Assembly (NCBI GenBank): GCA_021299375.1
Contig: JAJTGR010000012.1
Span: 1-64,000, forward strand
DNA length: 64,000 nucleotides
Direction: 5' to 3'
Source of the DNA: Gemmatimonadota bacterium
GTDB taxonomy: Bacteria; Gemmatimonadota; Gemmatimonadetes; Gemmatimonadales; Gemmatimonadaceae
Shown here: positions 35,363-38,868 of the stretch, piece after piece
Layout of the letters: every line of letters begins with the position of its first letter
How positions within the stretch are numbered: the first letter of the stretch is position 1
Program-made: the position numbers and the translations under genes
Notes under the pieces: generated by a model
The model's input: only the letters and a program-made list of their open reading frames with translations
What the model was told of the DNA's origin: nothing
Databases searched by the model: none

Positions 35363-35641
35363 ATGAGCGCTTCTCAGTACGATCCGAACAAGCTGGGCTG
35401 GGGTGCCGCCATCGTCACGTGCGTGTTCACGGCGGCGCTTGGCTTTGGCGCGTACACGATCCACAAGAACACGTATCGGCACCCGCGCGACCCCATGAAC
35501 CAGCAGGTGTATTACGAGCGCGACCAGGGCGGCCACAGCGCCGGTGCCGAGGACCACGGGGCGGCCGCGGGGGGTGGGCACGCGGAATCGGCTGGCGGTG
35601 AGCACAAGGACGCGGCGCCCACCGGCGGCGCGAAGCACTGA
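35363..35641 (+). CDS. Small single-TM protein
   Basis: 92 aa followed directly by a strong terminator. Confidence 0.6.
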   Translation: MSASQYDPNKLGWGAAIVTCVFTAALGFGAYTIHKNTYRHPRDPMNQQVYYERDQGGHSAGAEDHGAAAGGGHAESAGGEHKDAAPTGGAKH

Positions 35642-35673: not shown

Positions 35674-35705
35674 AAAAGGCGCCGACCGAGTCGGCGCCTT
35701 TTTTT
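35674..35705 (+). terminator. Rho-independent terminator
   Basis: AAAAGGCGCCGA-ccgag-TCGGCGCCTTTTTTT. Confidence 0.95.
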
Positions 35706-35720
35706 GCGCCCGGATCGTCC

Positions 35721-35737
35721 CATTGGTTTTATCAATG
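35721..35737. promoter_or_regulatory. LysR-type box CATTG-N7-CAATG (T-N11-A) upstream of the sbtA-like gene
   Basis: Palindromic T-N11-A in an AT-rich island about 100 bp before the ATG. Confidence 0.55.
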
Positions 35738-35838
35738 TTTTTGCTTCTTACATTCAATTTGCATATCACCATGGATTCGGTGAGACTCGTGCATCGCCCG
35801 CACGGTGCGGGCGCATCCGTTCCCCTCCACGACCGGAC

Positions 35839-36822
35839 ATGATCGAAACGCTCAAGGCGAACCTGCTCTCGCCGATTCCCCTCGCGTTCGCGCTGGGGAT
35901 CGTGGCGCGGCTCATCCGCAGCGAACTCACGCTGCCGAAGGACCTCTACACGTCCATCTCGATCTACCTGCTCTTCGCGCTCGGCCTGAAAGGCGGTGTG
36001 GAGCTGGCACACTCCTCGTTCGATGCCATTGCCCTGCCGGCCGGGGCGACGATCCTGCTCGGCTGCATCACCCCGCTGACCACGTACGCCGTCATGAAGT
36101 ACGTGGGGCGCTTCGACAGCTCGGATGCGGCCGCCATGGCCGCGCACTATGGGTCGGTCAGCGCGGTCACATTCATTGCGGCGCAGCAGTTCGTGCAGCA
36201 GGTCGGTGCGCCGGCCGAGGGCTTCATGCCCACGCTGCTGACGCTGCTGGAGAGCCCGGGCATTCACATCGCGCTCGCCATTGGCGCCGTGCAGCGCCAG
36301 AAGACGCTGGGGGCGCAGTCGGGGCAGCAGGCGAGCCTGAAGGAGACACTGCACGAGGTGCTCACGGCGCGCACCATGGTGCTGCTGGTGGGCGGTCTGC
36401 TGGTGGGCTTCCTCATGGGAGAGAACGGCTGGAAGTCGGTGGGTCCCTTCTACGACGGCATGTTCCGCGGTGTGCTCATGCTGTTCCTGCTCGAGATGGG
36501 CATCGTGGCGGGATCGCGACTTGGTGACCTCAAGAAGGTCGGTCCGTTCCTGCTTGCCTTCGGGGTGCTCATGCCCATCGTGCACGGCGCGCTGGGTGCC
36601 GCGTTGGGTGTGTGGGCCGGGCTCTCGGTGGGTGGCGCGACGGTCCTGGCCACGATGGCGGCGAGCGCGAGCTACATCGCGGCCCCACCGGCAGTGCGCG
36701 TCACGCTGCCAGAGGCCAACCCGACCTATTTCCTGACGTCGTCGCTCGCCATCACGTTCCCCTTCAACATCCTGGCCGGCATCCCGCTGTACTTCCGGAT
36801 CGCCCAGGCCCTCCACGGCTGA
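35839..36822 (+). CDS. sbtA: SbtA-family sodium-dependent bicarbonate transporter
   Basis: LLSPIPLAFALGIVARLIRSELTLPKDLYTSISIYLLFALGLKGG; AHYGSVSAVTF. Confidence 0.92.
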   Translation: MIETLKANLLSPIPLAFALGIVARLIRSELTLPKDLYTSISIYLLFALGLKGGVELAHSSFDAIALPAGATILLGCITPLTTYAVMKYVGRFDSSDAAAMAAHYGSVSAVTFIAAQQFVQQVGAPAEGFMPTLLTLLESPGIHIALAIGAVQRQKTLGAQSGQQASLKETLHEVLTARTMVLLVGGLLVGFLMGENGWKSVGPFYDGMFRGVLMLFLLEMGIVAGSRLGDLKKVGPFLLAFGVLMPIVHGALGAALGVWAGLSVGGATVLATMAASASYIAAPPAVRVTLPEANPTYFLTSSLAITFPFNILAGIPLYFRIAQALHG

Positions 36823-36834
36823 GGAGACAGGTCC

Positions 36835-37161
36835 ATGCTCACCTACCCGTTCAAGCTCGTCACCATCATTGCCGAGCCCGTGCTCGAGCAGAAGATCACC
36901 CACGACCTCCGGCAGCTTGGCGCCACGGGCTTCACGATCGTCGAGGGGCGTGGCCAAGGCTCGCGCGGGCTCCAGGCGACCGAGATCCCGGGGTCGGACA
37001 TCCGCATCGAGAGCATCGTGGAGCCTGACGTTGCCGACCGCATCGTGGCCCATCTGGCCACGACCTACTTCGGCAATTACGAAGTGATCGCGTACCTGTC
37101 CGATGTCGCCGTCGTGCGTGGCGACAAGTACCGCAAGACCACCACCTCCGGAGGGCAGTAA
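36835..37161 (+). CDS. sbtB: PII-like protein, SbtB-type
   Basis: VTIIAEPVLEQKITHDLRQLGATGFTIVEGRGQGSRG; directly after sbtA. Confidence 0.85.
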   Translation: MLTYPFKLVTIIAEPVLEQKITHDLRQLGATGFTIVEGRGQGSRGLQATEIPGSDIRIESIVEPDVADRIVAHLATTYFGNYEVIAYLSDVAVVRGDKYRKTTTSGGQ

Positions 37162-37162
37162 G

Positions 37163-37894
37163 GTGTGCGTGACCTGTGGGACGCCTGACGCGGGGCGTTC
37201 GCGGCGTGACTTTCTGCGGTCGGCGACGGTCGCCGGGGCGGGCCTCGTGGCCGGTGGGGTCGCGGCGAGCGCGTTCGCCAGGCCCGCGTGGGCGCACGGT
37301 GGGCCAATGCGCGCCCCCGAGCCCTACGCCAATCCCAAGGCGGCGCTCGACGCGCTCTACAAGGGCAACGAGCGGTTCGTGAAGGGCGAGGTGATGGCGC
37401 CCAATCGCAACATGGCGCGTCTGAAGGAAGTCGCGGCCGGGCAGAAGCCGTTCGCTGCGTTCCTCGGATGCGCCGACTCGCGTGTGCCCATCGAGATCGT
37501 GTTCGACCAGGGGTTCGGTGACGTGTTCGTCACCCGCATCGCCGGCAACGTCGCCGATCCCGCCATCATCGGCTCCCTCGAATTCGGCACGGAGGTGCTC
37601 GGGGCGCAGGTCCTGTACGTGCTCGGGCACACCAAGTGCGGGGCCGTGTCGGCGACGATGGCCGGCAGCGACGTGCCGGGGCAGATCTCCACGCTGTACC
37701 AGCACATCCGGCGCGCCGCCAAGGAGAGCGGCGGCGACGTGAACAAGGCGATTGCCCGCAACGTGGAGATCCAGGCCGAAATCCTGAAGGAGGCCTCGCC
37801 GGTCATCGCCAAGCGCATCAAGGCCGGCACATTGCTCATCGCCGGTGGCGTGTACGACCTGGACACCGGCAAGGTCATCCCGGTGACCGTCTGA
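37163..37894 (+). CDS. Beta-carbonic anhydrase with Tat signal
   Basis: RSRRDFLRSATVAGAGLVAGG Tat motif; Zn ligands CADSR and HTKCG. Confidence 0.92.
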   Translation: MCVTCGTPDAGRSRRDFLRSATVAGAGLVAGGVAASAFARPAWAHGGPMRAPEPYANPKAALDALYKGNERFVKGEVMAPNRNMARLKEVAAGQKPFAAFLGCADSRVPIEIVFDQGFGDVFVTRIAGNVADPAIIGSLEFGTEVLGAQVLYVLGHTKCGAVSATMAGSDVPGQISTLYQHIRRAAKESGGDVNKAIARNVEIQAEILKEASPVIAKRIKAGTLLIAGGVYDLDTGKVIPVTV

Positions 37895-37953
37895 GTGCGA
37901 CACGGGGCGCCTGGGGGGCCACCGCCAGCGCCCCGCTCCTCGTACAATTCAGC

Positions 37954-38868
37954 ATGACCGCCCTGTCGCTGAACACGCTCAACTATCAGCATCTGCTCTA
38001 CTTCTGGGTCGTGGCGCGCGAGGGCAGCATTGCGCGTGCCACGCAGGTGCTGCACCTCACGCAACCCACGATCAGCACCCAGCTCAAGCACCTTGAGCGG
38101 TCGTTGGGAGCGGCGTTGTTCACGAAGCGCGGCCGCCACCTCGTGCTCACGGAAACCGGGCAGCTGGTGTTCCACTACGCGGACGACATGTTCCGTACGG
38201 GCCGTGAGCTCACCGAGGCGCTCGCGCGCGGCGATGCGCGGCTGCCCACGCGGTTGGTGGTCGGCATCTCCGATTCCCTGCCCAAGCTGACGACCTGGCG
38301 CCTGTTGCGGCCGGCCATCGATGCCGTGCCGGGATTGCGCCTCACCTGCCGGATCGACAAGACCGAGCGGCTGCTCGCCGACCTGGCAGTGCATGCCCTC
38401 GACGTGGTGCTCACCGACACGCCGGCCTCGCCCAATGCCTCGATCGCCCTGTTCACGCACCTCCTCGGAGAGTGCGGCGTCACCGTGTTCGGGACACAGG
38501 CGCTGCAGGCGCGCTTCCGCCGGAGCTTTCCGCACTCGCTCACCGGCGCCCCGTTCATCATGCCCACCTCGAACACGGCCATGCGCCGTTCGCTCGACGC
38601 CTGGTGCATTGCCCATGACGTCCGCCCCGACGTGGTGTGTGAGGTCGAGGACGTGGCACTGCTTCAGGTGTTCGGGCAGGAGGGCATGGGGCTCTTCGCT
38701 GCCCCCACCGTCGTGGAGGCGCAGATCCGTCGTGCATACAACGTGCGCGTGGTGGGGCGCCTGCCGACGGTGCGCGAGCGGTTCTACGCCATCTCGGCGG
38801 AACGTCGGCTCGCCCATCCCGCCGTCGTCGCGCTCTCCGAGGTCGCGCGAACGCGTTTGTTCAGCTGA
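37954..38868 (+). CDS. LysR-family regulator, NhaR-like
   Basis: LNYQHLLYFWVVAREGSIARATQVLHLTQPTISTQLKHLERSLG and overall resemblance to NhaR. Confidence 0.85.
   Translation: MTALSLNTLNYQHLLYFWVVAREGSIARATQVLHLTQPTISTQLKHLERSLGAALFTKRGRHLVLTETGQLVFHYADDMFRTGRELTEALARGDARLPTRLVVGISDSLPKLTTWRLLRPAIDAVPGLRLTCRIDKTERLLADLAVHALDVVLTDTPASPNASIALFTHLLGECGVTVFGTQALQARFRRSFPHSLTGAPFIMPTSNTAMRRSLDAWCIAHDVRPDVVCEVEDVALLQVFGQEGMGLFAAPTVVEAQIRRAYNVRVVGRLPTVRERFYAISAERRLAHPAVVALSEVARTRLFS

Follow-up and report, generated by a model that had tools for sequence, protein, structure and literature searches.

Four neighbouring genes in a 64,000-nucleotide stretch of a Gemmatimonadota bacterium of the family Gemmatimonadaceae (GenBank assembly GCA_021299375.1, contig JAJTGR010000012.1, positions 1 to 64,000; hereafter the window) encode an SbtA-family transporter, its PII-like partner SbtB, a beta-carbonic anhydrase (CA) and a LysR regulator of the NhaR type. 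These genes probably represent an autoregulated operon for Na+/HCO3- uptake which feeds anaplerosis in a photoheterotroph, with the CA exported through the twin-arginine translocation (Tat) pathway. The initial annotation had described four adjacent, co-directional genes of these identities as a bicarbonate-handling unit. As seen in Table 1, all four open reading frames (ORFs) are uninterrupted and follow one another head to tail on the plus strand. Each of the names is backed by family, sequence and fold matches, and the families and the gene association together argue for the proposed handling of bicarbonate.

Identity of the four gene products

SbtA matches the Sbt_1 domain PF05982 (transporter class TC 2.A.83) over its full length (E=3.4e-113, profile positions 1-308 of 308), and its AlphaFold model (predicted local distance difference test, 84) superimposes on solved SbtA structures with template modelling scores of 0.80-0.88 at 28-30% identity. 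No NCBIfam model matches SbtA or SbtB. The proposed HCO3- contacts of Synechocystis Slr1512, which were obtained by docking, are S114, Y140, S324 and S327 (PMC8352866). They align with S108, L134, S278 and A281 of the window protein, and S108 and S278 are invariant in the aligned Gemmatimonadota. The Na+-site residues F110, G111, A112, A320 and S322 of Slr1512 align with Y104, G105, S106, A274 and S276. The predicted substrate is HCO3-, carried with Na+.

For SbtB, a match to PF00543 (E=8e-20), the PII fold, a GxGSR T-loop motif and the position of the gene next to sbtA were found, the last of these being shared by most of the Gemmatimonadota and named SbtA loci surveyed. The nearest solved chain is TTHA0516 (2cz4, 7.7e-26), followed by cyanobacterial SbtB (1e-10), and a fold search also returned 2cz4 (48%) and SbtB. 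The T-loop is about 5 residues shorter than in the aligned cyanobacterial SbtBs. The C-terminal redox R-loop CGPxGC is absent, the protein ending in DKYRKTTTSGGQ; conservation of this motif has been described for only a subset of SbtB homologs, and hence it does not define all SbtBs.

The CA matches PF00484 (E=9.2e-34), and its nearest solved chain is 1ym3 (Rv3588c) of Mycobacterium tuberculosis (E=8.4e-39). The beta-CA motifs C-x-D-x-R and H-x-x-C are present as CADSR and HTKC, and the alignment of relatives shows no change at the zinc-binding and catalytic Cys, Asp, Arg and His. The Tat signal that had been proposed for this protein was recovered: SRRDFLRS is followed by a hydrophobic stretch (mean hydropathy up to 1.56) and an AWA-H cleavage site, and the twin arginine is invariant in the aligned relatives. 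Export via Tat is therefore predicted.

The likeness of the LysR protein to NhaR was also confirmed, with NhaR being the best NCBIfam model at 213.4 bits, 126 bits above the next best (87 bits), and with 33% identity to Escherichia coli NhaR over the whole length. Because this score misses the 219-bit cut-off of the NhaR equivalog NF008284 by about 6 bits, the regulator is referred to as NhaR-type and not as NhaR. SbtA-linked NhaR-type relatives of planctomycetes reach 254-260 bits against the same model. An acidic residue equivalent to E134, the NhaR residue with a role in Na+-dependent activation, is conserved in Gemmatimonadota, whereas some SbtA-linked relatives lack it.

Table 1. Coordinates of the features of the sbt unit and of the RuBisCO-like gene of the same genome
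Feature	Position	Strand	Basis or sequence
Intrinsic terminator-like hairpin and T-run of the upstream gene (35363-35641)	35678..35706	+	GGCGCCGACCGAGTCGGCGCC TTTTTTT; folding
Predicted LysR/NhaR-type operator, 41 bp: CATTG-N7-CAATG palindrome (T-N11-A core) and ACATTC half-site	35721..35761	+	
sbtA, Na+-dependent bicarbonate transporter family, 327 aa	35839..36822	+	PF05982; 7cye E=8.9e-34; model against SbtA structures
sbtB, PII-like partner, 108 aa, short T-loop, no CGPxGC R-loop	36835..37161	+	PF00543; 2cz4; SbtB
Beta-CA, twin-arginine signal, 243 aa, GTG start	37163..37894	+	PF00484; 1ym3; CADSR/HTKC
NhaR-type LysR regulator, 304 aa	37954..38868	+	PF00126/PF03466; NCBIfam NhaR; 33% to E. 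coli NhaR
Form IV RuBisCO-like protein	L146 1033..2355 (G000:C109)		Close to PDB 2qyg and 1ykw

Transcription unit and predicted operator

The gaps between the four genes are 12, 1 and 59 nucleotides, and the ribosome site of the CA gene (GGAGG) lies within the 3' end of sbtB. A longer ORF start of the CA at 37103 was rejected; the CAs of relatives align from the GTG at 37163, which is most likely the translation start. Since the preceding gene is closed by a hairpin, the gaps are short, and a histidine kinase gene 3' of the regulator is convergent, the four genes can form one transcription unit. The hairpin has a 9-bp GC stem (-28.2 kcal/mol, z -4.3), and similar hairpins occur at the equivalent place in relatives. 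A scan for promoter and terminator consensus sequences found nothing, although folding gave this clear hairpin, and no RNA family reached the Rfam gathering threshold between 33 and 43 kb. The sbt unit thus appears to have its own promoter region, set off by the terminator from the gene upstream. That gene encodes a small protein of 92 residues with one likely membrane helix and an Ala/Gly/His-rich tail, which has no Pfam or NCBIfam match. Its homologue lies directly upstream of the locus in most genus members read, whether the cassette is present or absent.

Downstream of the terminator, the consensus of the conserved island upstream of sbtA is CATAGGTTTTCTCAATGTATTTGTTCCGAACATTCAATTTG. In the window this island is the predicted operator of Table 1, and it starts with a perfect palindrome, CATTG-N7-CAATG, and T-N11-A is the LysR signature (PMC6307784). 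The block was found with constant spacing in all 11 sbtA upstream regions of the genus that were examined, in flanking DNA that has otherwise diverged. With up to 3 mismatches, the 41-bp block has one match in the 4.48-Mb genome, none in a reversed control and none in shuffles of the window. The palindrome alone is not rare (0.85 expected with 1 mismatch), and the specificity lies only in the full block. Weight-matrix scores are not independent evidence within the genus, whose sites served to train the matrix. With this matrix, a related site was detected upstream of TerC-sbtA-sbtB in G113 (26 bits). The site between the divergent CA and nhaR genes of G300 scored 1.0, that upstream of nhaR in G010 -1.6, and a weaker one upstream of sbtA in G225 -9.3. 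Where a locus lacked both SbtA and NhaR, or had no nhaR gene close by, the best scores were -13.6 to -35. The NhaR-type regulator is the presumed binding partner of the predicted operator.

Conservation of the gene association

The survey covered 399 genomes of the phylum (G numbers) and 80 named SbtA loci; L numbers denote individual loci. SbtA was found in 35 of the 399 Gemmatimonadota genomes. Within the genus, the order sbtA-sbtB-CA-nhaR is present in seven genomes (G000, G005, G006, G009, G015, G017, G021) and sbtA-sbtB-nhaR without the CA in four (G003, G011, G014, G068). Two genomes of another family, G192 and G273, have the order CA-sbtA-sbtB-nhaR. The CA and nhaR genes of G300 are divergent. 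Of the 80 named loci, 10 have an NhaR-type LysR gene no more than 2.5 kb from SbtA, the type being assigned when NhaR was the best NCBIfam model, where scanned, or at about 49% identity to the window regulator. A further candidate, L121, had no match at the threshold used. If each locus is given a 0.5% chance, the probability of 10 in 80 is about 1e-11, which is a rough figure as the loci are not independent.

NhaR-type regulators beside SbtA occur in Gemmatimonadota, Planctomycetota, Verrucomicrobiota, Bdellovibrionota and Burkholderiales, and in the last four groups either these regulators or exported CAs stand beside SbtA. The gene order is seen again in other phyla and in relatives with as little as about 47-67% identity, and the association is therefore beyond chance. 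Conservation of the four-gene order, which the initial annotation had named as a check, holds in part: the association is conserved in the genus, in another family and in other phyla, but the CA is optional and the order varies.

Several unusual arrangements were also observed. In G010, the usual locus holds nhaR by itself, preceded by an operator-like site (L186 5714-6781; L185), and sbtB and the last part of sbtA lie at the edge of a different contig. In the puf-bearing genus member G012, the order is nhaR-sbtA-DUF2490-sbtA-DUF2490 (L184 5232-10230, G012:C69), and no SbtB or CA accompanies the two SbtA copies in this stretch. DUF2490 also adjoins an NhaR-type gene in L154.

TerC family genes (PF03741) are another recurrent partner, found near NhaR-type genes or SbtA in G113, G158, G160, G204, G257, G292 and G300, and near SbtA in 6 of the 80 named loci (L089, L095, L097, L111, L117, L128). 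In Gemmatimonadota, Planctomycetota and other phyla, TerC stands beside NhaR-type regulators and SbtA (L167 6154-7212, L153 6861-7733, L111 1903-2775, L117 2427-3287, L169 5456-6181), and the TerC-sbtA-sbtB genes of G113 have an operator-like site upstream. Alx, a TerC family member of E. coli, is induced by alkali, which favors alkaline pH as the signal. Among the neighbors of NhaR-type genes without SbtA that were read or scanned, which were not all of them, no other bicarbonate transporter was seen; TerC and DUF2490 were found instead.

Metabolism of the host

The host genome encodes the reaction-centre genes pufL and pufM and a full phosphoenolpyruvate (PEP) carboxylase. A single RuBisCO-family match was found genome-wide, on another contig. 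It was rejected as a sign of autotrophy, as the nearest proteins are the RuBisCO-like 2qyg (E=1.5e-225) and 1ykw, and the product is of the non-carboxylating form IV. No carboxylating RuBisCO of forms I-III was detected in the assembly, which is 95.9% complete, so that a missed gene is possible. In place of the carboxylating enzyme that marks the CO2-concentrating mechanism of an autotroph, only the RuBisCO-like protein is encoded. This agrees with two earlier statements, namely that the window holds no RuBisCO gene (the genome-wide search places the sole match elsewhere; the window was not rescanned gene by gene) and that the unit may have a non-autotrophic role, for which PEP carboxylase is available. 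Freshwater phototrophic Gemmatimonadota have been called photoheterotrophic and carry type IV RuBisCO-like genes (PMC8547001), with which the pufLM genes and form IV protein found here agree. The host is apparently a light-harvesting photoheterotroph that does not fix CO2.

Within the genus, SbtA is present in 13 of 23 genomes with pufLM and in 0 of 7 without (Fisher's test, 0.0096); the 13 include G010, in which a contig edge leaves just the last part of sbtA, together with sbtB. Among the best assemblies the counts are 8/11 and 0/5 (0.013). SbtA is also found in phylum members without reaction-centre genes (G031).

Carbonic anhydrase in the presence and absence of SbtA

Export signals of CAs, judged by eye, were found in 18 of the 19 CAs adjoining SbtA or its regulator (Tat, Sec or lipoprotein). 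In genus members without SbtA, the locus was located by its flanking genes. Four of them (G020, G001, G347, G024) have no sbt, CA or nhaR gene there. Two others, G100 and G004, have the CA alone (194 and 190 residues, 78% and 77.5% identity to the window CA). These two CAs have no recognizable signal, and their ORFs start a few tens of nucleotides past the upstream terminator, which leaves no room for one. When the signal columns were left out of the alignment, the CA tree placed the signal-less proteins among Tat-bearing ones, requiring at least 2 state changes. As their close outgroups all bear the Tat signal, the tree suggests that it was lost in the CAs without SbtA. In the genus, the CA bears an export signal in 7/7 cases with SbtA and in 0/2 without (Fisher's test, 0.028). 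This is suggestive, with very few events, of a CA that is exported where the pump is present and cytoplasmic where it is gone. Separately, the CA of G006 (L008 2803-3402) lacks 40 residues in frame (about 111-150 of the window CA), and this may reflect gene decay or else a collapse in the assembly.

A wider proposal can be made tentatively, and we hold it to be somewhat doubtful: that the presence of SbtA selects the compartment of the CA, so that after pump loss the same CA is re-targeted from periplasm to cytoplasm, and that NhaR-type proteins are a general control of SbtA, exported-CA and TerC units in non-autotrophs of several phyla. Re-targeting would follow because a cytosolic CA would short-circuit a HCO3- pump.

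Proposed function and alternative explanations

In the proposed operon, the exported CA would equilibrate CO2 and HCO3- in the periplasm, where the CO2 may come from outside or leak from respiration, and SbtA would bring HCO3- into the cell together with Na+. SbtB may open or close SbtA from the cytoplasmic side according to adenine nucleotides, as in cyanobacteria. The imported HCO3- would serve PEP carboxylase and other HCO3--using carboxylases rather than RuBisCO. The regulator, encoded last, would bind the single 41-bp operator and switch the unit on, the signal probably being Na+ or alkaline pH, or low CO2. Alkaline water contains little CO2 and much HCO3-, and an alkali and Na+ sensor of the NhaR type would therefore be a sensible switch for a HCO3- pump. 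The direction of CA action, the gating by SbtB, the protein at the operator and the physiological use are all presumptive here.

Several observations weigh against this function. Two of the four docked HCO3- contacts are changed (Y140 to L134, S327 to A281), which makes bicarbonate uncertain as the substrate. The genome encodes a second beta-CA, at C91, without a signal, so that imported HCO3- would partly equilibrate to CO2. One SbtA-linked CA, L137, is the sole exception among the 19 in having no signal. The CA is missing from the cassettes of the four SbtA-bearing relatives noted above and is therefore a dispensable member, and many SbtA loci have neither NhaR nor CA. Finally, the statistics linking pufLM to SbtA are not corrected for kinship.

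The changed pocket leads to the suggestion that the SbtA proteins of this branch transport a different small anion, such as formate or another carboxylate, and that their gene association with the CA is loose. An A269T mutant of a Shewanella SbtA-family protein affects formate tolerance (PMC12093963), and the two SbtA copies of G012 are paired with DUF2490 and not with CA or SbtB. We consider this quite improbable, since in several phyla the branch is repeatedly linked to SbtB and an exported CA, and the two retained pocket serines (S108, S278) are invariant in Gemmatimonadota. Somewhat less remote, though still unlikely, is a unit for pH and Na+ homeostasis instead of carbon supply, in which HCO3-/Na+ import and a periplasmic CA would serve to buffer the cell during pH or Na+ stress and the Alx-like TerC would be a sister gene of the regulon. 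The recurrence of TerC with NhaR-type genes and SbtA, including the G113 arrangement with its operator-like site, is in keeping with such a role. However, the import of HCO3- and Na+ adds Na+ and base, the wrong direction for alkaline or Na+ stress, while SbtB and CA indicate carbon and SbtA follows phototrophy within the genus. That the four genes are neighbors by an accident of inheritance in one lineage, with no joint function, is very hard to credit: several relatives do lack the CA and G010 keeps nhaR at the locus with sbtAB on another contig, but distant taxa have differing arrangements (the CA gene upstream, or divergent from nhaR, or nhaR divergent from sbtA), the gaps are 1-12 nucleotides and an operator-like site is shared.

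Bicarbonate pumps have been studied almost only as feeders of RuBisCO, and a regulated pump with an exported CA is predicted here in phototrophic Gemmatimonadota without a carboxylating RuBisCO. If correct, this would account for the way in which photoheterotrophs obtain HCO3- for anaplerosis when pH is high or CO2 is low. For a widespread group of regulators annotated as 'NhaR', both a candidate function and a candidate DNA site are offered, and the same-locus comparison makes the old idea of conflict between cytosolic CA and HCO3- pumps testable outside cyanobacteria. In the literature searched, no paper contained both SbtA and NhaR, none linked Gemmatimonas with bicarbonate transport, and the Gemmatimonadota papers (including PMC8547001) did not mention bicarbonate or carbonic anhydrase. 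The parts are known; the combination, the operator and the locus comparison were not found in that literature.

Comparison with known systems

The closest likeness to the solved PII-like proteins is to the TTHA0516 type of Thermus, and Meiothermus (L076, L078) has sbtA-sbtB of the same type, although no CA or NhaR match was found in the neighborhoods fetched. With E. coli nhaAR, the window shares a regulator of the same LysR subfamily whose gene is downstream of a Na+-coupled transporter, but here the linkage is to an SbtA operon and not to NhaA, and the score is just below the equivalog cut-off. An extracellular CA has been proposed to aid a dissolved inorganic carbon transporter if the two are co-expressed (PMC10880623). 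That system likewise has a CA outside that may help a transporter, but it is described genome-wide and for autotrophs, whereas here a single operon in a photoheterotroph is concerned. The cyanobacterial sbtA-sbtB pair of Synechocystis (slr1512-slr1513) also has an SbtA-family transporter adjoining a PII-like partner, and both folds match. Compared to that pair, the window unit has in addition an exported CA and an NhaR-type regulator, two changed pocket residues in SbtA, an SbtB with a short T-loop and without the R-loop, and no carboxylating RuBisCO found as the user of the bicarbonate.
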